From assembly GCA_030430565.1 (NCBI GenBank), contig JAUIKS010000001.1, forward strand, positions 124,001-188,000: a DNA stretch of 64,000 nucleotides, in the 5' to 3' direction. The position numbers were made by a program, and so were the translations under genes. Of the stretch, positions 5,933 through 62,230 are shown one piece after another (position 1 is the first letter of the stretch; the number at the start of each line of letters is the position of its first letter). Under the pieces are notes generated by a model. It had not been told where the DNA came from and did no database searches. It was given only the letters and a program-made list of their open reading frames with translations. The stretch is from Polyangia bacterium (GTDB lineage: Bacteria; Myxococcota_A; Polyangia; Nannocystales; Nannocystaceae).

Positions 5933-6233
5933 ACGTCGATTAAAGCTGCTCCTGAAGACAGCAGATAAAATCTATCAAGAACGTCGCCCGCGCTCTACGA
6001 GGCGTCGCCGCGCGTATCGTGAATCGGTGATGGGCTGCGGTCCGGGAGGTTTCTCCAGGAACATGTATTTTTGTTCATGATACGCGCGGTTTCGTGCGAA
6101 CGACCGCGTCGGTGGCCGCGGATTCAAGGTGGTCCCGGAAGTGTTTGCGATGTCAGCCCAGGCGCGCGCGCACCAAACTGCGGGATGTCATGAGAGCGCG
6201 GCCAATACAAATAGGATTATACTGATCGTTGGT
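5933..6233. promoter_or_regulatory. divergent control region between two signalling operons
   Basis: This 301-bp gap holds no convincing gene, although the frame of the kinase-receiver gene stays open back to a GTG at 6129. It is less GC-rich than its surroundings. A 16-base sequence at 6008-6023 recurs inverted at 6074-6089 with 15 of 16 matches; each arm contains a TATCGT/TATCAT hexamer and so could be one of two opposed promoters or operators. Between the arms, GAACA (6059-6063) and TGTTC (6072-6076) form another inverted repeat with an 8-nt spacer. Confidence 0.5.
6008..6089. repeat. 16-bp inverted repeat, arms 6008-6023 and 6074-6089
   Basis: Left arm CCGCGCGTATCGTGAA; the reverse complement of the right arm is CCGCGCGTATCATGAA. 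The centre is 50 bp long. The position midway between divergent signalling operons suggests a shared regulator or mirrored promoters. Confidence 0.6.
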
Positions 6234-32990: not shown

Positions 32991-34337
32991 ATGACCTTAG
33001 AAGATGTTCGCCGCCGGCTCCCGATCGTCACGCTGCCGGCCCCTGACAGCCGCTGGACGACCCACGAGGCGCGCGTACGCGCGAAGGGTCCGCGCTGGGC
33101 CGTGTGGGAGCTGACGCTCGCCTGCGATCAGAAGTGTGTTCACTGCGGACCGCGTGCGGGGGCGCGCCGCCCCGACGAGCTGACGACCGAGGAGTGCCTG
33201 CAGATCGTCAAGGAGCTGCGCGAGCTCGGCTGCGGCGAGGTCGTGCTGATCGGCGGCGAGGCCTACCTGCGCAACGACTTCATCCTGATCATCCGGGCGA
33301 TCCGCGAGGCCGGGATGAGCTGCACCATGACGACCGGCGGGCTCAACCTCACGCCCGCGCGCATCGACGCGATGATGGAGGCCGGGATCGGCAGCGTCAC
33401 CTTCTCGATCGACGGGCTCGAGGAGACCCACGACCGCCTGCGCGGCGTGAAGGGCAGCTGGCGGCGAGGGCTCGCGGCCATGCGCGCGGTCCACGAGCGC
33501 GGCGGGCGGGTGGCGAGCAACACGCAGATCAACGCGCTCACCAAGGACGAGCTGCTGCCGCTGTTCGAAGAGCTCGCCGACGCGGGGATTCACTCCTGGC
33601 AGCTCCAGATCACGGTCCCCCACGGGAACGCGGCCGACAACCCCGACATCATCCTGCAGCCGTACATGTTCCTCGAGCTGTTCGAGACGCTGGAGCGCGT
33701 GCTCGAGCGCTGCGACGCCCGCGGCGTCCGCATGTGGCCGGGCAACAACCTCGGCTACTTCGGGCCGCTCGAGCGTCGCTTGCGGAAGGCGCAGAATCGC
33801 TACTGGCGCGGCTGCTCGGCCGGGCGCGCCGTCATGGGGATCGAGAGCGACGGCGCGATCAAGAGCTGCCCGAGCCTCGGCGGGCCGCTCAACGTCGGCG
33901 GCGGCTGGCGCGAGCACGGCGTGCGAAAGCTGTGGGAAGAGACCTATCAGCTCGGCTACATCCGCCACCGCACCGTGGATGACCTCTGGGGCTACTGCCG
34001 CGAGTGCTATTACGCCGAGACCTGCATGGCGGGCTGCACCGCGGCCTCCGAGCCCGTGTTCGGGCGCCCCGGCAACAACCCGTTCTGTCACCACCGCGCG
34101 CTGATGATGGATCGCGCGGGGCTGCGCGAGCGCCTCGAGCAGGTCCGCGGGGCCGCGGGCGGGGGCTTCGACAACGGCCTGTTCCGGCTGATCCGCGAGC
34201 ACAAAGACCCCGCGCGACGACGGGCCGAGGGTCCCGTCGAGGTCGTCGAGCCGCGCGTGTCACGGGCGGTCGAGCCGACCGGCCCGGGGCGACCGCTCGA
34301 GCGCGGCGGTGCGCCGGGGACGAGCTCGGCTTCTTAA
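32991..34337 (+). CDS. radical SAM/SPASM enzyme
   Basis: 448 residues. The radical SAM cluster motif is C45xxxC49xxC52 (LACDQKCVHCG), followed by the GGE-type motif LIGGEAYLR and FSIDGLEETHDRLRG. The C-terminal SPASM region (about 280-375) has CSAGRAVMGIESDGAIKSCPS and CRECYYAETCMAGCTAASE, enough cysteines for extra FeS clusters, as in PqqE and peptide-modifying enzymes. The last 40 residues are Arg/Pro-rich and disordered. Such enzymes usually modify a ribosomally made peptide or protein, or mature an enzyme. The zinc-ribbon lipoprotein 62 bp downstream is the nearest candidate substrate; this is inference. Confidence 0.88.
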   Translation: MTLEDVRRRLPIVTLPAPDSRWTTHEARVRAKGPRWAVWELTLACDQKCVHCGPRAGARRPDELTTEECLQIVKELRELGCGEVVLIGGEAYLRNDFILIIRAIREAGMSCTMTTGGLNLTPARIDAMMEAGIGSVTFSIDGLEETHDRLRGVKGSWRRGLAAMRAVHERGGRVASNTQINALTKDELLPLFEELADAGIHSWQLQITVPHGNAADNPDIILQPYMFLELFETLERVLERCDARGVRMWPGNNLGYFGPLERRLRKAQNRYWRGCSAGRAVMGIESDGAIKSCPSLGGPLNVGGGWREHGVRKLWEETYQLGYIRHRTVDDLWGYCRECYYAETCMAGCTAASEPVFGRPGNNPFCHHRALMMDRAGLRERLEQVRGAAGGGFDNGLFRLIREHKDPARRRAEGPVEVVEPRVSRAVEPTGPGRPLERGGAPGTSSAS

Positions 34338-34399: not shown

Positions 34400-34924
34400 A
34401 TGGAGCTCGTGGACTGTCCCTCATGCGCGTGCCTGCTCGAGGCGCGCGAGCGCAGCTGCCCGTTCTGCGGCGCGAACCTCCGCCGCGTCAGCGCCTCGCC
34501 GTGGCTGCTGCTCGGCGTCGGCGCGGCGCTCAGCGCCGGATCGCTCGTCGCCTGCAGCGGCAGCGACTCCGGGGACAGCATCTCGACCTCCAGCGCGACC
34601 GACTACGACGTGGACACGACGGGCGAGGACGACTCGAGCCCGAGCGAGAGCGGGAGCAGCACCACCAACGAGACGACGACCGGCGACTGGAGCGGCGGCG
34701 GCGTCACGTACGGCGGCCCGGACGACTGGACGACCGGCGACTCCTCCGACTGGGAGACGACGGGCTCGTCCAGCTCGACGGGCTCGACGACGACCTCAGA
34801 CCCGACGACCTCTGGGGGCGGCAGCACCTACGGCGGGCCGACGGAGACCTGGACCACGTCCGGGCCCACGACGGGCGCTGACGACGACCTGTGGGAAGAG
34901 CCGGACGCGGCGCTCCGCGAGTAG
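34400..34924 (+). CDS. zinc-ribbon/lipobox protein with TYGGP motifs, possible radical SAM target
   Basis: 174 residues. The N-terminus is a zinc-ribbon-like CPSC (6-9) and CPFC (20-23). A hydrophobic helix (WLLLGVGAALSAGSL, 35-49) follows, ending in a lipobox-like LVAC (Cys52). Having a Cys4 ribbon ahead of a signal anchor is unusual; the ribbon would stay in the cytosol unless it is part of the signal. The rest is Ser/Thr/Gly/Asp-rich with two copies of GGG(V/S)TYGGP (near 100 and 140) and several Trp-Thr-Thr motifs (DDWTTGD, DWETTG, ETWTTSG). Aromatic residues in small repeated motifs beside a radical SAM/SPASM gene suggest a modified substrate, but no chemistry is established. Confidence 0.7.
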   Translation: MELVDCPSCACLLEARERSCPFCGANLRRVSASPWLLLGVGAALSAGSLVACSGSDSGDSISTSSATDYDVDTTGEDDSSPSESGSSTTNETTTGDWSGGGVTYGGPDDWTTGDSSDWETTGSSSSTGSTTTSDPTTSGGGSTYGGPTETWTTSGPTTGADDDLWEEPDAALRE

Positions 34925-35006: not shown

Positions 35007-35696
35007 CTAGCCGAAGTTCTCGATGTCGATGACGTCGTTCCCGCTCTGCCCGATGAAGTTGAACACGGAGAACTCGTTGCGCTCGACGTTGAAGTAGTAG
35101 CGGGTGCGGCCGCGCTTGTGCGCGAGCAGCTTCTTGTTCGCGATGTCGACCTGGACGATCACGGCCTGGGCCGGGTTGTCGTTCCAGTCCATCCCGACGG
35201 TGAGCTTGCCCTTGTACATGACGCCTTGGCCCATCCGGACCATCAGCGGGCTGTCGCGGCTGTACGCGGCGTTGAGCTCGTCGTTGAAGTTCCACGAGCG
35301 GACGATGTCCTTCATCTCGTCGTACTCGACGATGCGGGGCTCCTCCTCGGGGTCGGGCTCGGGGTCAGGCTCGGGCTCGGGGTCAGGCTCGGGCTCGGGG
35401 TCGGGCTCGGGGTCAGGGTCGGGCTCGGGCTCGGGCTCGGGGTCAGGCTCGGGCTCGGGGTCGGGCTCGGGGTCGGGCTGCTGCGGCGGCTCCGGGTTGT
35501 CGACGAGGTTGACGCTGCCGGGCGGGCAGGCCGACCGCTTCGAGGTCACCGTCGTGTCGGTCTGGATCACGGTCATCGTGCGCACGGGCTTGATGAACGT
35601 CGTCATCGGCAGCACGCACACGTGCTCGTCTTGTTCGTTGAGGACCTCTGAGATCTGGGTCCACAGATCCCCGGAGTTCAGGTCTTTGATCGGCAT
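35007..35696 (-). CDS. PEPD-repeat protein of unknown function
   Basis: 229 residues from ATG 35696, which has a strong AGGAG site (AGGAGAGCTG then ATG); an upstream in-frame start lacks one. There is no signal peptide. Residues 1-68 form a small domain ([32 protein letters not shown]). Residues about 72-118 are Pro-Glu/Pro-Asp dipeptide repeats, a stiff acidic spacer. The last 110 residues (ARIVEYDEM... to ENFG) are beta-rich, with [14 protein letters not shown] and [17 protein letters not shown]. Neither end domain is recognised. The acidic spacer recalls TonB-like or cell-wall-spanning linkers, but no membrane anchor is seen. Confidence 0.72.
35341..35485 (-). repeat. tandem repeat coding for PEPD/PDPE dipeptides
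   Basis: Six- and twelve-base units (GGCTCGGGGTC with A/G variation) repeat about 20 times within the gene at 35007, encoding only Pro-Glu and Pro-Asp. Confidence 0.75.
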
Positions 35697-36014
35697 CAGC
35701 TCTCCTCGCGCGACGTCCCCCGTCGATCTCCCCGGCGCCATTAGAAGATGCTCTTATGGACAGGAGATGTCGTAGGAGACATGTTTTGACGCGGCGAGGT
35801 TGGCCAGTGGGAGCGTGTGCGTCAAGGTGCTAATGTCGCGCCGCTCGCTAGCGCGACTCCGTGAAGTGCTTGTATCGTCAAGCGCCCCGGCGCGAGCGGG
35901 CGTCGCCTGGGCGGGGTCCCGCGTGCTCGCGCGAGCGGCCGCGGCTCGGGCGATCCACGGCCGGAGGCGCGCGTGAAACCAAAGCGCGCGCCGCGAGCTC
36001 ACGCGGTCATTTTT
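35697..36014. other. 318-bp intergenic region upstream of the PEPD-repeat gene
   Basis: No supported gene. On the minus strand it contains two TTGACG hexamers (complements near 35822-35827 and 35878-35883), possible -35 elements, and short repeats AGGAGATGTC/AGGAGACATG around 35764-35785. The thioesterase gene converges from the right. Confidence 0.35.
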
Positions 36015-36521
36015 TCACCGCGCGGCGGCACGCAGCTGCTCCCGCAGCGCGACGCGGCTCGCCCTGCGCGCGCGCGCCTCGGACTCGCGGCGACGGTCTT
36101 CATCGCGCTCGAGCAGCAACCGGGCGACGGGCCGGGGGCGGCCGTACTCATCGACGCTCACGAAGGTCGTGTAGGCCTTGACCGCGTGACGGAGCTCGCC
36201 GGTATGGGGGTGCTCGCTCCATACCGTGACGCCGCACTCCATGCTGGTGGTGAAGACCGCGTTCACCTGGCTCTTGAGCACGACGATGTGGCCCAGCTTG
36301 ATCGGCAGCAGGAAGTTGACCGCGTCGATCGAGGCCGTGACGACGCTGGTCCGCGCGTGGCGCTGGGCCGAGATCGCGGTGCACATGTCGATCCACGACA
36401 TCACCTCGCCGCCGAAGATGTTCCCGAGCGCGTTCGCGTGGGGCGGGAGCACGAGCTTCGTCATCTCGACGCGCGAGGCGGAGACGGGGCGCGTGGGCAA
36501 CGCGTCTGAGCGCCCGCTCAT
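36015..36521 (-). CDS. acyl-CoA thioesterase (hot-dog fold, YciA/ACOT type)
   Basis: 168 residues from ATG 36521, which overlaps the regulator's stop by ATGA. The hot-dog acyl-CoA hydrolase pattern is clear: MTKLVLPPHANALGNIFGGEVMSWIDMCTAISAQRHA (active-site Asn and Asp on the central helix), TASIDAVNFLLPIKLGHIVVLKSQV and AVKAYTTFVSVDEYGRPRPV. The C-terminus is an Arg/Glu-rich tail. It hydrolyses acyl-CoA thioesters in the cytosol; chain preference is unknown. Coupling to a divergent regulator and exporter suggests that fatty acyl-CoA or a derivative matters to this locus. Confidence 0.9.
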   Translation of the reverse strand: MSGRSDALPTRPVSASRVEMTKLVLPPHANALGNIFGGEVMSWIDMCTAISAQRHARTSVVTASIDAVNFLLPIKLGHIVVLKSQVNAVFTTSMECGVTVWSEHPHTGELRHAVKAYTTFVSVDEYGRPRPVARLLLERDEDRRRESEARARRASRVALREQLRAAAR

Positions 36522-36901
36522 CCCGTGCTCCTGGTGCGACCATCGGTCGCAAGGCCGACCGCGCTCGCCTCGCGCGTCGTCAGGAGCGCGCTCAGGAGGT
36601 CTCCGATCGTCTTGTCGTCCTCGAGCGGGTGGCGCATCGGCGTCGAGAAATTGATCGAGTAGTGGTTTCGTCGGCCCTCTCGCTCCCGGGTGAGCGCGCC
36701 CGCGGACTCGAGCTCGGTTATGATCCGGTGGACCGCCCGCTCCGTGACGCCGACCTGGTTCGCGATCTCCCGTAGCGTCGAGTCGGGGTCTCGCGCGATG
36801 CACACGAGCACGTGCGCGTGGTTGCTCAGAAACGTCCACACAGAAGATGCGCGCTTTCCGCCGTTTCGAGAACGACGACTCTGTTCTCTTGACATCAACA
36901 T
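36518..36901 (-). CDS. winged-helix transcriptional regulator (MarR/ArsR-like)
   Basis: 127 residues from ATG 36901; ATG 36895, with AGGA 5 nt before it, is an alternative. Residues about 20-85 form a winged helix: WTFLSNHAHVLVCIARDP, DSTLREIANQVGVTERAVHRIITELESAGALTRE (helix-turn-helix and recognition helix), then the wing GRRNHYSINF. No ligand domain is evident beyond a short helical C-terminus (DDKTIGDLLSALLTT). It is coupled to the thioesterase and divergent from the exporter. Direct repeats and a palindrome in the shared promoter region are its likely binding sites. Confidence 0.85.
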   Translation of the reverse strand: MLMSREQSRRSRNGGKRASSVWTFLSNHAHVLVCIARDPDSTLREIANQVGVTERAVHRIITELESAGALTREREGRRNHYSINFSTPMRHPLEDDKTIGDLLSALLTTREASAVGLATDGRTRSTG

Positions 36902-36909
36902 CCTAACAC

Positions 36910-36915
36910 AACATA
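36910..36915 (-). promoter_or_regulatory. -10 element TATGTT for the regulator/thioesterase operon
   Basis: On the minus strand TATGTT ends 8 nt before ATG 36901, beside the palindrome at 36916-36933. Confidence 0.45.
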
Positions 36916-36933
36916 CATGAAATCGTTTTCATG
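36916..36933. promoter_or_regulatory. 18-bp near-palindrome CATGAAATCGTTTTCATG
   Basis: 16 of 18 positions are symmetric. It abuts the regulator's -10 and overlaps the first 14-bp repeat, so it is a candidate autoregulatory operator. Confidence 0.5.
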
Positions 36934-37009
36934 TGTATGATTTCCTGTGAACGATTTCGTGCGATGAGTTTCATGTGTATGATTTCGTGTGTCAGATTTC
37001 ATGGAAGAG
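36926..37009 (+). repeat. six in-phase 14-bp direct repeats upstream of the exporter
   Basis: Units start at 36926, 36940, 36954, 36968, 36982 and 36996 with consensus NTTTC(A/G)TGTGTATG; the TTTC core is in all six. Units 1 and 4 differ only in the first base and lie 42 bp apart, about four helical turns. TATGAT hexamers at 36936-36941 and 36978-36983 fall on unit junctions and could serve as -10 elements. The block is AT-richer than its surroundings. It is probably a cooperative binding array for the divergent regulator. Confidence 0.8.
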
Positions 37010-37028
37010 CTTTCCAGAAAGCTAAGGC

Positions 37029-39173
37029 GTGAGAACAGAGAGCTCGAACAGCTACCGCAACGCTGACCTCCGCGCGGGCCGTGAGGTCTCGATCCTGGCG
37101 AGAGCGCTGGAGATCGCGGCGGAGAGCGCGGGGTTGTCTGGCCCGTCGGTCGCGGCCGGGACCGACTCGGTCACGGCGGAGGACGCCTGGCACGCGGTCG
37201 CGGACAACTCCGCGATGGCGAGCTGGACCGAGGTCGCGGGGTCGGCGGCGCGCGCGCTCGGGCTCCAACCGTATCTTCGTGAGAGTCCTCCTGCTGCGCC
37301 CTCGCGGGACCAGCCGGCGCTCGCGCGCGTAGGCGAGGGTCGCTGGTTGGTAGCAATAGGGCAGGGGCGACGGCGGCTGAGGCTTGTGGAACTCGACGAG
37401 CGGGGGGAGCGGAGGATGAAGATGACACCGGCGCAGCTGCGCGAGTACGCGGGCGATCAGCCGTGGCTCCATCTTCAGCCGCTGCTCGCGCTCGACCCGA
37501 TCGGCGTCAGTCGTCGACCTGTCCTCAAGAACAAGCCGTGGCTGCGGCTGCGGTCCTTCTTCGGCCTCGAGCGGCGCGAGCTCTGGGTCGTCGTCGTCTA
37601 CGCGCTCGTGCTCGGCGGCGTCTCCCTGGCGGTGCCGGTCGCCGCGCAGTCGCTCGTCAACACCGTCGCCTTCGGGTCAGTGCTGCAGCCCTTGGTCGCG
37701 CTGACGATCCTGCTGCTCGGCGTGCTGATCTTCGCGGGCGTGCTCGGCGTGCTCGAGGCCTACGTCGTCGAGGTCCTGCAGCGGCGCGTGTTCGTGCGCG
37801 TCGCCGACGACTTCGGGCGCCGCCTCCCGAGCGTCCGCACCGACGTGCTCGACAGCCAGTTCGGGCCCGAGCTGGTCAACCGCTTCTTCGACGTCTTGAC
37901 GATTCAGAAGTCGCTCTCGGGCCTGCTGCTCGACGGGCTCACCATCGCGCTGCAGACGATCATCGGCATGATCCTGCTGGGCTTCTACCACCCGCTGCTG
38001 CTCGCCTTCGACGTCGTGCTGGTGGTCCTGCTCGCGCTGGTCATCGCGCTCGGGCGCGGCGCCGTGACGACCGGCCTGAACGAGTCGAGCGCGAAGTACC
38101 GGACCGCCGCGTGGCTCGAGGACGTGACGCGGGCCTCGCACCTGTTCCGCGGCGTCAAGGCGCAGCAGTACGCGGCGCAGCGCACCGAGATGCTGTGCCG
38201 CGACTACCTCTCGGCGCGCAAGCGGCACTTCCGGATCCTGCTGCGACAGATCACCGGCGGCTTCGGCCTGCAGATCGTCGCGATGGTCGCGCTGCTCGGC
38301 GTCGGCGGCTGGCTGGTGATCGACCGCCAGCTCACGCTCGGGCAGCTCGTCGCGGCCGAGCTCGTGATCGCGGCGATCGGCGCGAGCTTCGTCAAGCTCG
38401 GCAAGAACCTCGAGAAGCTCTACGACCTCAACGTCGGCGTCTTGAAGATCTCGCAGATCGTCGACCTGCCGACCGAGCGCCGCGGCGGCGAGCCGCTGCG
38501 CGCGGGCGGGCCGGCGCGCGTCGTCCTCCGCGAGCTGGTGGTCGCGCGCGGCGGACGGCCCTTGCTCGCGAGCGGACAGCTCGAGCTGCAGCCCGGCGCG
38601 CGGCTTCACCTGCGCGGCGCGGCCGGCAGCGGCAAGAGCACGCTGCTCGAGGTGATCGCGGGCCTGCGCCCGCAGGAGCGCGGCAGCGTGCAGATCGACG
38701 GCCTCGATCTGCGGCGCGCGGACCTCACGTCGGCGCGCCAAGAGATCATGCTCGCGCGCGGCGCCGACTTCGTGGACGGGTCGGTGCTCGAGAACCTGCG
38801 GCTCATGGGGCGCGACTGCAGCAAGGAGTCCTCGGTCCGCGAGCTGCTGCGGCTCGTCGCGCTCGAGCGGGTGATCGACGCGCTGCCGACCGGGCTCCAG
38901 ACCCGCGTGCTGCCCTCGGGGGCGCCGTTCTCCGAGTCGCACGCGCGTCGCCTCGCGCTCGCGCGCGCGCTCGCGGCGAGGCCCAGGGTGCTGCTGCTGG
39001 ACGGCGCGCTCGACGGCCTCGGGCTCAGCGAGGCGCAGCAGACCGCGCTGCTCGACGCGGTGCTCGGCCCCGAGGCGCCCTGGACCTCGATCGTCGTGAC
39101 AGACGATCCTGCGGTCGCGGCCCGCTGTGAGCGCGCCGCGACGCTGCGCGAGCAGCGGCTGGAGGTGGCGTGA
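37029..39173 (+). CDS. type I secretion-like ABC exporter with degenerate ATPase motifs
   Basis: 714 residues from GTG 37029. An N-terminal 150 residues resemble a C39-peptidase-like domain without the catalytic Cys (WLVAIGQGRRRLRLVELDERGE, LLALDPIG). The six-helix transmembrane domain follows (about 185-460), with ELWVVVVYALVLGGVSLAVPVAAQSLVN and SLSGLLLDGLTIALQTIIGM. The ATPase has a good Walker A (GAAGSGKST, about 530-538), but the LSGGQ signature reads FSESH (about 634), Walker B is LLLDGALD with Gly where the catalytic Glu should be, and the Q-loop is altered. It overlaps the HlyD gene (TGATG). Catalysis may be slow or absent; the locus is otherwise intact. Confidence 0.87.
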   Translation: MRTESSNSYRNADLRAGREVSILARALEIAAESAGLSGPSVAAGTDSVTAEDAWHAVADNSAMASWTEVAGSAARALGLQPYLRESPPAAPSRDQPALARVGEGRWLVAIGQGRRRLRLVELDERGERRMKMTPAQLREYAGDQPWLHLQPLLALDPIGVSRRPVLKNKPWLRLRSFFGLERRELWVVVVYALVLGGVSLAVPVAAQSLVNTVAFGSVLQPLVALTILLLGVLIFAGVLGVLEAYVVEVLQRRVFVRVADDFGRRLPSVRTDVLDSQFGPELVNRFFDVLTIQKSLSGLLLDGLTIALQTIIGMILLGFYHPLLLAFDVVLVVLLALVIALGRGAVTTGLNESSAKYRTAAWLEDVTRASHLFRGVKAQQYAAQRTEMLCRDYLSARKRHFRILLRQITGGFGLQIVAMVALLGVGGWLVIDRQLTLGQLVAAELVIAAIGASFVKLGKNLEKLYDLNVGVLKISQIVDLPTERRGGEPLRAGGPARVVLRELVVARGGRPLLASGQLELQPGARLHLRGAAGSGKSTLLEVIAGLRPQERGSVQIDGLDLRRADLTSARQEIMLARGADFVDGSVLENLRLMGRDCSKESSVRELLRLVALERVIDALPTGLQTRVLPSGAPFSESHARRLALARALAARPRVLLLDGALDGLGLSEAQQTALLDAVLGPEAPWTSIVVTDDPAVAARCERAATLREQRLEVA

Positions 39174-40564
39174 TGCAGCCTGTCTCAACCGACACCTCAA
39201 CCGAGAAGCCCGTCAACGCGCCCGCGCGAGCGCGCGAGCGCGCGCGCTCGAGCTCGATGGGCGTGCTGCGGCCCTCGACGCTGGACAGCGCCGGCACGAT
39301 CGACGGCGCGCGCGTGCTCGCGTGGCTGCTGGTGCTCGGGCTGGTGCTCGTCATCGTCGCGCTGATCTTCACGCCGTGGCAGCAGAACGTCACGGGCTCA
39401 GGCCGCGTGATCGCGTACACCCCGATCGAGCGCCAGCAGCCGATCGAGGCGCCGGTCAGCGGGCGCGTGAAGCAGTGGTACGTGCGCGAGGGCGATCACG
39501 TCGAGGAGGGGCAGCTGCTCGTCGAGCTCAGCGACAACGACCCCGAGATCCTCGCGCGGCTGGAGCGTGAGCGCACGGCGGTCCGCTCGCAGATCGAGGC
39601 CTCCGAGCTGCAGATCGCGGTGAGCCAGGCCAAGATCGACTCGCTCGAGAGCGTGCGCACCGCGGCGGTCCTGAGCGCCGGGCTCAAGCGCCAGATCGCC
39701 GACGACAAGCGCAACGCCGCCGAGCGGGCGCTGGAGGCGGCCGAGGCCGCCTACAAGACCGCGAGCCTCAACTACGAGCGCCAGCGCACGCTGCACGACA
39801 AGGGCCTCGTCTCGACGCGCACCCACGAGCTCGCGGAGCTGAAGGTCGAGACGACCGAGGCGTCGCTCGGCCGCGCCAAGGCGTCGCTGCGCGCGGCGAA
39901 GCGCGAGGTCAAGGCGATGCAGGCCGATCGCGACAAGGCCGACAACGACAGCAAGGCCAAGGTTGAGGACGCGCGCTCATCCCTGCAGAAGGCGAAGTCT
40001 GAAAAGGCCAAGGCCGAGGCGGCGCTCGCGAAGATCGAGGTTCGGCTCACGCGACAGAAGACCATGCGCGTGACGGCGCCGCGGGCCGGCGCCGTGTTCC
40101 GCGTCAACTCGTTTCAGGGCGGCGAGATGGTCAAGGCCGGCGACGGCCTGATGCAGCTCGTCCCCGACACCAAGGCGCGCGCGGTCGAGCTGTGGGTCGA
40201 CGGCAACGACGCGCCGCTGATCACACCGGGTCGCCACGTGCGGCTGCAGTTCGAGGGCTGGCCCGCGGTCCAGTTCGTCGGCTGGCCGTCGGTCGCGGTC
40301 GGGACGTTCCCGGGCGAGGTCGCGTTCGTCGACGCGACCGACAACGGTGAGGGCCGGTTCCGCATCGTCGTCGTGCCCGAGGGCGAGGAGCCGTGGCCCC
40401 AGCCCCGCTACCTGCGGCAGGGCGTGCGCGCCAACGGCTGGGTCTTGCTCAACGAGGTCAGCCTGGGCTACGAGATCTGGCGCCAGTTCAACGGCTTCCC
40501 GCCGGCGGTCGGCGCCCCCAAGGTCAAGTCGGCGAAGCCGACGCCCAAGCTCTCGACGAAGTAG
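39173..40564 (+). CDS. HlyD-family periplasmic adaptor
   Basis: 463 residues from ATG 39173, which follows GGAGG and overlaps the ABC gene's stop (TGATG); GTG 39170 is the alternative. One inner-membrane helix (VLAWLLVLGLVLVIVALIF) is followed by a lipoyl half (VSGRVKQWYVREGDHVEEGQLLVEL), a long coiled-coil hairpin (about 120-300, with AKAEAALAKIEVRL), the second lipoyl half (TAPRAGAVFRVNSFQGGEMVKAGDGL) and a C-terminal beta domain. It links the ABC subunit to the TolC-like protein. Near the end FEGWPAVQFVGWPSVAVGTFPGEV is typical of HlyD-type adaptors. Confidence 0.92.
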   Translation: MQPVSTDTSTEKPVNAPARARERARSSSMGVLRPSTLDSAGTIDGARVLAWLLVLGLVLVIVALIFTPWQQNVTGSGRVIAYTPIERQQPIEAPVSGRVKQWYVREGDHVEEGQLLVELSDNDPEILARLERERTAVRSQIEASELQIAVSQAKIDSLESVRTAAVLSAGLKRQIADDKRNAAERALEAAEAAYKTASLNYERQRTLHDKGLVSTRTHELAELKVETTEASLGRAKASLRAAKREVKAMQADRDKADNDSKAKVEDARSSLQKAKSEKAKAEAALAKIEVRLTRQKTMRVTAPRAGAVFRVNSFQGGEMVKAGDGLMQLVPDTKARAVELWVDGNDAPLITPGRHVRLQFEGWPAVQFVGWPSVAVGTFPGEVAFVDATDNGEGRFRIVVVPEGEEPWPQPRYLRQGVRANGWVLLNEVSLGYEIWRQFNGFPPAVGAPKVKSAKPTPKLSTK

Positions 40565-40566
40565 CA

Positions 40567-42012
40567 ATGGCGAACTACCGAGCATGTTTGAAGCGACATG
40601 TTGAGCGAGTCAGGGGGACGCTGGCGGGGGCGCTGCTCGCCGCCGCGATCATCACGCTGCCGGCGGGCGACGTCCGGGCGGCGGCGCCCCTGACCCTCGA
40701 CGAGGTCCTGCGCGCGACCCGTGACACGCACCCCGGGATCGAGGCGGCCGACCGCGGGATCGACAAGGCGTCGGGCAAGGCCTTCGCGGCCCGCGGCGGC
40801 TTCGACCCCACGCTCTCGATCCGCGCCAAGTGGGAGCCCGTCGGCTACTACCCGAACGCGCAGGTCGACGCGCTGGTGTACCAGGCGACGCCGCTGTGGG
40901 GCACGGCGCTGTTCGCCGGCTACCGCCTGGGCTGGGGCTCGTTCCCGATCTACAAGGGCGACCTCGAGACGCTCTCGGGCGGGGAGCTGCGCGCGGGGGT
41001 CGAGCTCCCCGTCTGGCGCAACGGCCCGATCGACTCCAAGCGCGCGAAGATCCAGAGCACGCGGATCCGCGAGGGCGCGGCCCGGAGCCAGCGCGACGCG
41101 GCGGAGCTCGAGCTCGAGCGCGACGCGGCCTGGGCGTTCTGGGACTGGGTCGCGGCCGGCCAGAAGCTCCAGGTCTCGCGGCAGGTGCTGAGCATCGCCG
41201 AGCGGCGAAACGCCGGCCTGCAGGAGCTCGCCAACGCCGGCGCGATCGAGCGCATCAAGCTCGTCGACAACCGCCGCCTCGTGGTCTCGCGGCGCGCCAA
41301 GGTCGTCGAGTCGGAGCGCAAGTTCCAAACAAGCGCGCTCAAGCTCTCGCTCTACTTCCGCGACGGCGATCTGCAGCCGATCCGCGTCGGCGAGGAGCGC
41401 GTGCCCCCGCGCATCCCGGAGCCGCGCGGCGTCGACACCCTCACGCTCGAGCAGGAGATCGAGCAGGCGCTCGCGCGGCGCCCGGATCTCGCGGCGCTCG
41501 TGGCCGAGCGCGACGCCCTCCAGGTCAACCTGCGCTTGGCTCGAAACCAGCGCGCGCCCGACGTGAAGCTGCAGTCCTACGTCGCCCGCGACTTCGGCGA
41601 CGGCCCCGACGAGCTGCGCCCGACCGAGTTCGGGGTCGGCGCGTACGTCACCATGCCGCTGCCGCTCCGGGAGCTCCGCGGGAACTTCCGCGTCGCGCAG
41701 GCGGAGGTCGCTGCGGTCGAGGCCAAGCTCCGCGGGATGAAGGACAAGGTCGCCGCGGAGATCCAGACCGCGCTCGTGGATCTCGGCGCGGCGCAGCAGC
41801 GCGTCCAGCTCGCGCGCGAGCAGGTCTCGCTCGCGAACGAGCTCGCGGAGGCTGAGCGCACGCGCTTCTCCGCGGGCGCGAGCGACCTCGTGATCGTGAA
41901 CCTCCGCGAGCGCGCCGCCGCGGACGCGGCCAACGACGTGATCGACGCGCTCGCGGACTTTCAGCGCGCGCGCGCGGACTACATGGTCGCGACCGGTCGC
42001 AGCCCCTCGTAG
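40567..42012 (+). CDS. TolC-like outer membrane channel
   Basis: 481 residues from ATG 40567, 2 bp after the HlyD stop. The signal peptide is LAGALLAAAIITLPAGDVRAA. It shows two internally similar halves of the outer membrane efflux protein family: TLDEVLRATRDTHPGIEAADRGI at the start and VDTLTLEQEIEQALARRPDLAALVAER in the middle, each leading into long coiled-coil helices and a two-strand barrel part (YQATPLWGTALFAGYRLGWG, GVGAYVTMPLPL). With the ABC and HlyD genes it forms a one-step exporter. No dedicated substrate gene is obvious; the small gene at 42074 is closest. Confidence 0.9.
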   Translation: MANYRACLKRHVERVRGTLAGALLAAAIITLPAGDVRAAAPLTLDEVLRATRDTHPGIEAADRGIDKASGKAFAARGGFDPTLSIRAKWEPVGYYPNAQVDALVYQATPLWGTALFAGYRLGWGSFPIYKGDLETLSGGELRAGVELPVWRNGPIDSKRAKIQSTRIREGAARSQRDAAELELERDAAWAFWDWVAAGQKLQVSRQVLSIAERRNAGLQELANAGAIERIKLVDNRRLVVSRRAKVVESERKFQTSALKLSLYFRDGDLQPIRVGEERVPPRIPEPRGVDTLTLEQEIEQALARRPDLAALVAERDALQVNLRLARNQRAPDVKLQSYVARDFGDGPDELRPTEFGVGAYVTMPLPLRELRGNFRVAQAEVAAVEAKLRGMKDKVAAEIQTALVDLGAAQQRVQLAREQVSLANELAEAERTRFSAGASDLVIVNLRERAAADAANDVIDALADFQRARADYMVATGRSPS

Positions 42013-43056: not shown

Positions 43057-44844
<1,788 letters not shown>

Positions 44845-44899
44845 AACTGTTGAAGAACTGTTGAAGAACTGTTGAAGAACGGCTGAAGAACGGCTGAAG
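44845..44899 (+). repeat. five 11-bp tandem repeats after glnS
   Basis: AACTGTTGAAG three times then AACGGCTGAAG twice, starting right after the glnS stop. It lies between convergent genes. Confidence 0.8.
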
Positions 44900-46178: not shown

Positions 46179-46877
46179 ATGAAGAACTTGAGCTACAGCC
46201 GCGCGCTCGCGGCCCTCTCGCTGGCGCTCTACCTCCCCGCCTGCGGCGACGACAGCGTCGACGGCTCAGCCTCGGCGAGCGACAGCCAGGCGACGAGCTC
46301 GGAGACGACGACGGCCGAGACGACGAGCGCCCAGCCGGGCACCGGCACCGGCACGAGCGCGGGGACGGGCACGAGCGCGAGCGCGAGCGACTCCGGCGGG
46401 ATGACGACCGAGGGCGTGATGACGACGGGCGACCCGACGGGGGCGACGACGGGGGCGACGACGGCCGAGACGACGGGCGCGACGACGAGCGCGACGACGA
46501 GCGCGACGACGAGCGCGACGACAGGGGCGACGACGAGCGCGACGACGGGGGCGACGACGAGCGCGACGACGGGGGCGACGACCGGCAACCCCGACTTTGA
46601 CAACTGCGTAGACCTGCTCGCGGCGTTCTACGCCGAGACCGAGGCGATCCGCAGCTGCGAGCAGGACGACGAGTGCGGTCAGGTGCTCCCGGGCACGAGC
46701 TGCGGGTGCACGCGCAACTGGGTGGCGCGCCTCGACGCCGACACCGACTGGTTTTGGGAGCTCGTCGACATGGGCATCGAGCTGCAGTGCGAGCTCCCGT
46801 TCATCAGCACCTGCGACTGCCCCGCCGCCGACGGCTACGCCTGCGTCGACAGCATCTGCAACTGGAACTACATCTAG
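46179..46877 (+). CDS. lipoprotein with (A/G)TT(S/G) repeats and Cys-rich C-terminus
   Basis: 232 residues from ATG 46179, after GAAAGGA. Lipobox LPAC (Cys22). A linker of about 110 residues includes a long GATTSATT-type repeat (87-140). The C-terminal 90 residues (NPDFDNCVDLLAAFYAETEAIRSCEQDDECGQVLPGTSCGC...) contain about ten cysteines and read like a myxobacterial secreted Cys-rich domain. Unknown function. An open frame extends 600 bp upstream but has no start signal. Confidence 0.78.
   Translation: MKNLSYSRALAALSLALYLPACGDDSVDGSASASDSQATSSETTTAETTSAQPGTGTGTSAGTGTSASASDSGGMTTEGVMTTGDPTGATTGATTAETTGATTSATTSATTSATTGATTSATTGATTSATTGATTGNPDFDNCVDLLAAFYAETEAIRSCEQDDECGQVLPGTSCGCTRNWVARLDADTDWFWELVDMGIELQCELPFISTCDCPAADGYACVDSICNWNYI
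46437..46585 (+). repeat. (GCGACGACS)n microsatellite-like coding repeat
   Basis: Nine- and twelve-base units coding for Ala-Thr-Thr with Gly/Ser recur about 13 times in the lipoprotein linker. Confidence 0.75.
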
Positions 46878-52714: not shown

Positions 52715-53404
52715 ATGCCTGACGCGCCGCAGATCCCCGGCCGCGAGGCGCTGGCGCCGATCCTCGAGGCCGCCGGCGCGGAGGCGCTGCGGCTCGGGCC
52801 GCGCGCGCCCCGGCGCAAGCCCGACGGCTCGTGGGTGACCGACGCCGACCTCGCGGTCGCCGAGCTGCTCAGCGCCGCGTGTCGTGAGCTGCTGCCCGAG
52901 GCTGCGGTCTTGGAGGAAGAGCGGGGCGGGCGACTGGGCGCCGGGCTGTGCTGGGCGATCGACCCGATCGACGGCACCTCCGCCTTCGTCCGCGGCGAGG
53001 CGCGCTGGTGCGTCAGCGTCGCGCTGCTGGAGCGCGGTCGGCCTGTGCTCGGCGGCATCGTGCAGCCCTCCACCGGCTGGATGTGGACGGCGGACGCGAC
53101 CGGCGTGACCCTGCCGAAGGCGCGCGCGCCGGCGCGCGCGGTCGCGACGGGCCGGCTGCCGATGAGCCCGCGCCGCCTGCTCCGGGTCGCGCGCTGGGCC
53201 GTCGGGCGGCGGCTCGACCTCGGCGGCTCCGCCGCGCTGGCGCTGGCGGACGTGGCGACCGGCAGCCGGTCGGCGGCGATGATCTTCGGGGGCGCGATCT
53301 GGGATGTCGGCGCCGGCTGGGCGCTCGTCGAGGCCGCCGGCGGTCGCGTCGAGGCGGTGTCGCTCTCGGGGCACCGCTTCGATCTTCGAGCGACATGTCG
53401 ATAA
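52715..53404 (+). CDS. inositol monophosphatase-family phosphatase
   Basis: 229 residues from ATG 52715; an in-frame TTG at 52697 is not needed. Metal-binding motifs are VTDADLAVAELL, the Glu region AVLEEE, the core WAIDPIDGTSAF (DPIDGT) and the late IWDVGAGWALVEAAGG (WDxxAG). This is the complete Mg2+/Li+-sensitive phosphatase set. Substrates in the family include inositol-1-phosphate, PAP, fructose-1,6-bisphosphate and histidinol phosphate; this sequence is too generic to choose. At 229 residues it is short for the family but intact. Soluble. Confidence 0.85.
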   Translation: MPDAPQIPGREALAPILEAAGAEALRLGPRAPRRKPDGSWVTDADLAVAELLSAACRELLPEAAVLEEERGGRLGAGLCWAIDPIDGTSAFVRGEARWCVSVALLERGRPVLGGIVQPSTGWMWTADATGVTLPKARAPARAVATGRLPMSPRRLLRVARWAVGRRLDLGGSAALALADVATGSRSAAMIFGGAIWDVGAGWALVEAAGGRVEAVSLSGHRFDLRATCR

Positions 53405-62206: not shown

Positions 62207-62230
62207 AAAAGTCATGGTGGAAAAGTCATG
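62207..62230 (+). repeat. direct repeat AAAAGTCATG, two copies 14 bp apart
   Basis: Copies at 62207-62216 and 62221-62230, in the promoter region of the lipoprotein at 62283. The 14-bp period is the same as that of the exporter array at 36926. Confidence 0.45.

Follow-up and report, generated by a model that had tools for sequence, protein, structure and literature searches.

The question raised by this locus is why a short motif should recur every 14 bp in the intergenic region between the gene of a small winged-helix regulator and that of a divergent ABC exporter, within a window of 64,000 nucleotides (the whole stretch of DNA analysed in this work). A preliminary description had counted six in-phase TTTC repeats at this place and had proposed that they are bound cooperatively, possibly by an oligomer of the regulator, giving a switch-like response of the exporter. 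Our analysis of the array, of its surroundings and of the upstream regions of related regulators suggests that the repeated 14-base motif most likely serves as a series of binding sites for the product of the adjacent regulator gene.

Results

The array comprises seven units in exact register

TTTC starts at 36927, 36941, 36955, 36969, 36983, 36997 and 37011, between the regulator gene (36518-36901, minus strand) and the exporter gene (37029-39173, plus strand). The in-phase 14-bp array described before is therefore real but larger, with seven units and not six. These direct half-site units (TTTCNTGNGNNNGA; 36927-37024, plus strand) carry CATG-like cores at 36930 (CATG), 36944 (CCTG), 36958 (CGTG), 36972 (CATG), 36986 (CGTG), 37000 (CATG) and 37014 (CCAG), and together with an inverted half-site at 36916 (CATG) they make eight cores with 14 bp between each. 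As CATG is its own reverse complement, the core-to-core step is 14 bp in either orientation. Tandem Repeats Finder reported the array at 36927-37003 with a period of 14 and a score of 82. When the intergenic region was shuffled 5000 times with its dinucleotides preserved, in-phase runs reached at most 3 for TTTC and 4 for any 4-mer, compared with the 7 observed.

The units are not simple copies of each other. In the TTTC register units 1 and 4 match at all 14 positions (in the register used previously the first base alone distinguishes them, as had been stated), and the seven units together show 27 differences from the unit consensus, none of them in the TTTC..G columns, while the other columns vary. 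Treating units and columns as independent, an assumption that duplicated units do not satisfy, gives this a probability of about 1e-7, and the pattern is more like that of selected contact bases than of neutral slippage. The right arm of an inverted dyad, TTTCNTG, recurs in all later units in the same direction, the last of them reading TTTCCAG. The outer sides (CATGTG) of the units do not have the AA required for complete dyads to overlap, so the row looks like a series of directional half-sites.

An inverted dyad overlaps the putative divergent promoters

The first two cores of the array form an 18-bp inverted dyad (CATGAA-ATCGTT-TTCATG; 36916-36933), a candidate nucleation site that is conserved upstream of relatives of the regulator and gives a scoring match in 38 of 90 of them. 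A near-palindrome had been noted beside the array; in fact there are two, the important one being this dyad (CATGAAATCGTTTTCATG) and the second, AGCTTTCCAGAAAGCT, lying at the other end.

A consensus promoter scan found no canonical promoter in this region, and both promoters are putative assignments made by comparison. TTGAC is present on the exporter strand 21-23 nt from the dyad in eight loci, and since the best relatives read TTGAC-N17-TATACATG, the exporter -10 region probably overlaps the dyad. In the window the putative -35 is TTGACA (36889-36894, plus strand), followed after 17 nt by a putative -10, CATACA (36912-36917, plus strand; TATACA in relatives), assigned by comparison with loci L002, L005, L006 and L007. 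The putative -10 of the regulator, TATGTT (36910-36915, minus strand), directly adjoins the dyad, and its initial TAT immediately follows the dyad in 15 of the 38 relatives. The two TATGAT hexamers that had been described as promoter elements are present (36936-36941 and 36978-36983), but they are merely parts of the repeated unit and probably not promoters, because comparison with relatives favours TTGAC-N17-TATACA as the exporter promoter, its -10 touching the dyad. A protein bound to the dyad would block both putative promoters. Going beyond the preliminary description, we propose that the dyad would anchor the array and that its placement would be autoregulatory.

The regulator and its gene context

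The proposed array binder is a MarR/HTH_24-like winged-helix protein of 127 aa. HTH_24 is its best-scoring Pfam domain (8.9e-8), followed by MarR (1.7e-7), and the scores against the MarR family models (PF01047/PF12802) also exceeded the cut-offs (31.4 bits for MarR, cut-off 24.6, and 28.5 for MarR_2, cut-off 27). HTH_24 and MarR_2 both match 80 of 81 relatives. Proteins of the MarR family are dimers of about 140 residues per chain with long N- and C-terminal dimerisation helices. The AlphaFold model of the regulator (mean pLDDT 83.5) shows a winged-helix fold preceded by a disordered N-terminal stretch and followed by two short C-terminal helices (residues 99-106 and 109-114). The nearest solved protein was AspA, both in a profile search (8.6e-5 over nearly the whole profile) and in a fold search, where the AspA-DNA complex was the top match (1.2e-3); by either method AspA leads SmtB and MarR proteins only narrowly. 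Relatives occur in 26 of 59 nearby genomes, and a search of genome contigs confirmed at least 594 stretches encoding them. The proteins of this family are annotated only generically, for example as 'helix-turn-helix domain-containing protein'.

The exporter gene (permease and ATPase; ABC_tran 1.4e-18, ABC_membrane 1.1e-9) is the first of a proposed regulated operon, in which it is followed by an HlyD-type periplasmic adaptor (39170-40564, plus strand; HlyD_3 6.7e-15) and by an outer-membrane efflux protein of the TolC/OEP type (40567-42012, plus strand; OEP 3.7e-44). The listed ORF of the latter begins at 40393, the ATG at 40567 being the likely start. The divergent exporter (ABC, HlyD) is kept beside the regulator in many relatives. 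Placement of both starts was possible in six relatives (L028 and L117 being the same locus). There the exporter start lies 11-27 bp from the dyad, compared with 95 bp in the window, so the array is an expansion, toward the exporter, of an ordinary set of few half-sites.

The flanking ORFs tested by Pfam gave only radical SAM, thioesterase, ABC, HlyD and OEP matches, and neither ParA nor ParB was found among them. The radical SAM/SPASM protein (32991-34337) is close to the maturases of nif11-class and GDL-motif peptides (TIGR04103, E 1e-125; TIGR03913, E 2e-121; both under the curated cut-offs), and a small ORF downstream of its gene (34400-34924) encodes a CxxC-rich, lipoprotein-like product. 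These two genes could possibly form a peptide-modification cassette near the exporter.

The 14-bp grid accompanies the regulator across phyla

Relatives of the regulator were collected from nearby genomes and from GTDB genomes across phyla, which gave 90 non-redundant upstream regions. Pairs of CATG, CACG or CGTG cores in these regions were found 53 times at 14 bp, 32 times at 28 bp and 17 times at 42 bp, compared with about 7 at other distances. When the window was left out, 49 pairs remained at 14 bp, against a mean of 3.4 and a maximum of 12 in 2000 block shuffles. Chains of at least three half-sites occurred with period 14 in 37 of the 90 sequences, and in 1-7 with periods of 8-13 and 15-24. 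Among the clades, Myxococcota show the signal strongly (32 vs 2.4), and it is also present in Proteobacteria (6 vs 0.6), Planctomycetota (3 vs 0.4) and a few others; among actinobacterial relatives it was not significant with these cores (7 pairs vs a mean of 3.1 and a maximum of 9). Thus, 14-bp half-sites are kept upstream of diverged relatives, and the array continues a half-site grid found across phyla, which the preliminary description did not include. A lack of conservation in related genomes, which that description had named among the outcomes that would refute it, was not observed.

Furthermore, this grid is present in loci with an adjacent exporter (24 pairs vs 1.6) and, outside Actinobacteria, also in those without an exporter neighbour (18 vs 2.5), which ties the element to the regulator.

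The dyad is the most constant part of these regions, and some of them (L011 and L181) show little beyond it. In others (L005, L022 and L124) extra half-sites are found on either side of the dyad. Of the 76 sides of all scored dyads, 27 have an additional strong core at a distance of exactly 14 bp, compared with 0-7 for every other step between 10 and 19. In the window each outer half-site points the same way as the dyad arm nearest to it, but among relatives this is only a trend (15 vs 8 on the left side and 11 vs 7 on the right; 26 for and 15 against, window included).

The putative operator is specific within the genome

TTTCNTG-N7-TTTCNTG has five exact matches in the 11.6-Mb genome, every one of them in the array, and the dyad is the only exact match to CATGAA-N6-TTCATG; genome spacing statistics were computed on 864 kb. 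A class-wide search for three-unit arrays found no second long array besides that of the window. The other repeated matches were of the 7-bp TTCCGTG or were perfect 14-bp tandem repeats, and there were also scattered matches with one or two mismatches. One perfect 14-bp tandem repeat, with about eight copies of TTTCGTGCGGCCGG, lies in a distant relative (G189:C507:12473-12591).

CATG-N10-CATG also occurs elsewhere in the window, at 6062, 11269, 40583 and 62213, and a 20-bp dyad, ACATGTC-N6-GACATGT, is found at 53394. The latter is abundant, with 138 sites in this genome (at most one mismatch), 74 in the sister species, 18-68 in three other genomes of the family and 0-1 in others, while a reversed-pattern control gave 0 both in this genome and in the sister species. 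It resembles a binding site for some global factor of these genera. We considered whether the other genomic CATG-N10-CATG could be sites of the regulator studied here and rejected it; their consensus is a different one (ACATGTCYTnnARGACATGT) and they are absent from many genomes that carry the regulator, for which reasons a different factor is likelier for the genome-wide dyad. The spaced repeat at 62207-62230, which had been mentioned along with the array, is real (AAAAGTCATG twice, 14 bp apart) but probably not part of the same system. The pair shares the CATG-N10-CATG spacing of the genome-wide dyad, though its flanks are a poor match both to that dyad and to the exporter operator.

Other tandem repeats are present in the window. 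Five copies of an 11-bp AT-rich unit (AGAACTGTTGA, 95% match) lie at 44843-44899, in an otherwise GC-rich genome, and long GC-rich repeats are found at 46421-46586 (12 bp) and 35346-35479 (18/30 bp), the second of which encodes an acidic-proline (PEPEPD) stretch in the ORF at 35007-35741 (minus strand).

Discussion

Taken as a whole, the sequence data argue with fair assurance for an autoregulatory operator at which the small winged-helix repressor would nucleate on the dyad and add subunits every 14 bp. The mechanism that we infer, including its stoichiometry and its inducer, would run as follows. The repressor would bind first to CATGAA-N6-TTCATG, which overlaps the face-to-face -10 regions of both putative promoters, and further subunits would then join cooperatively, head-to-tail and in the same direction, over the TTTCNTG half-sites, until the chain coated the exporter leader as far as the start codon. 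Release of the chain would come from an inducer, probably one related to the substrate of the exporter, and would turn on exporter and regulator together. Because a 14-bp step corresponds to 1.33 turns of the helix and 42 bp to four turns, every third subunit would face the same way. Nucleation followed by head-to-tail addition is the simplest account, as a symmetric dimer explains the dyad but not a directional row with a fixed step. Of what had been proposed before, an operator-like element tied to the regulator stands, given the conserved 14-bp half-sites; oligomeric binding is the best reading of it, and we infer the switch-like response of the exporter.

The strongest alternative, which we regard as unlikely, is that the dyad alone is the operator of an ordinary MarR-like dimer, with the direct units acting as independent weak sites or titrating decoys, without protein-protein contact. 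The constancy of the dyad, the relatives with little beyond it and the outer CATGTG sides of the window units are in agreement with this. However, independent or decoy sites would need no strict 14-bp spacing, and it is precisely at this step that additional cores are found outside the dyad in relatives.

A neutral tandem duplication at an AT-rich promoter, by microsatellite-like slippage and with no function beyond the dyad, could explain the identity of units 1 and 4 and the growth of the gap between dyad and exporter; we consider it quite improbable, as the units are strongly diverged and yet none of their 27 differences falls in TTTC..G, and diverged relatives retain the same 14-bp grid. 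Least probable of all is an RNA-level element, in which repeats in the 5' UTR of the exporter would fold or bind a protein: the seven units would be transcribed if the putative promoter is right and the leader folds slightly better than shuffles, but not significantly (z = -1.57), and the grid extends to either side of the dyad in some relatives and persists without an exporter neighbour.

The nucleation and head-to-tail addition proposed here may have a wider reach. The 14-bp stepping common to relatives in several phyla points to a little-studied repressor family that would line up along DNA. More tentatively, and with somewhat less than even confidence, we suggest a widespread, uncharacterised family in which dyad nucleation and head-to-tail spreading on a 14-bp half-site track are combined, repeat number tunes the switch, and ancestry may be shared with the archaeal centromere protein AspA. 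With an operator rule of CATGAA-N6-TTCATG and CRYG cores every 14 bp, the regulons of this family would become predictable from sequence, and natural loci with 2 to 8 sites would offer a dose series for the influence of cooperative oligomerisation on the behaviour of a genetic switch.

Several known systems resemble parts of this one. Divergent autorepressors of the MarR family, such as CrtR (PMC5401885), share the divergent target, an operator over promoter elements and a small local regulon. CrtR itself was rejected as a characterised member, being a protein of 195 aa with a different site, a single TTAA-centred palindrome without a phased array (PMC5401885). In TubR-tubC, a winged-helix protein forms a superhelical nucleoprotein complex on a centromere site (PMC9178275), but this system serves plasmid partition and has other sites and another step. 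In the open-licence literature we have found no 14-bp phased operator of a winged-helix or MarR protein.

AspA, the segregation protein of the archaeal plasmid pNOB8, has its binding palindrome, of 23 bp, upstream of its own gene, and it spreads along about 200 bp or more of DNA, forming a protein-DNA helix (PMC5120986). Like the regulator, AspA (PDB 5k5q, 5k5o, 4rs8) is a small winged-helix protein, the nearest solved structure by profile and fold, and the palindrome upstream of its own gene has its counterpart in CATGAA-N6-TTCATG in the window and in relatives. In contrast, AspA is a plasmid centromere protein that works with ParB/ParA, whereas the gene described here lies beside an exporter, and the spreading of AspA has been described without a phased repeat track, which here is present in the DNA with its 14-bp step. 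BldC of Streptomyces forms cooperative head-to-tail multimers on direct repeats whose number varies (PMC5859096), and it therefore shows that a small winged-helix protein can regulate in this way. BldC has a MerR-like fold of 68 residues, covers 9 bp per subunit and recognises AATT-based repeats with no anchoring inverted dyad (PMC5859096), features that the regulator, with its MarR/HTH_24 domain, 127 aa and 14-bp step, does not have. Neither AspA nor BldC is the same system as the one described here. The 14-bp step sets it apart both from the 9-bp step of BldC and from PhoP-type repeats, which follow an 11-bp step.
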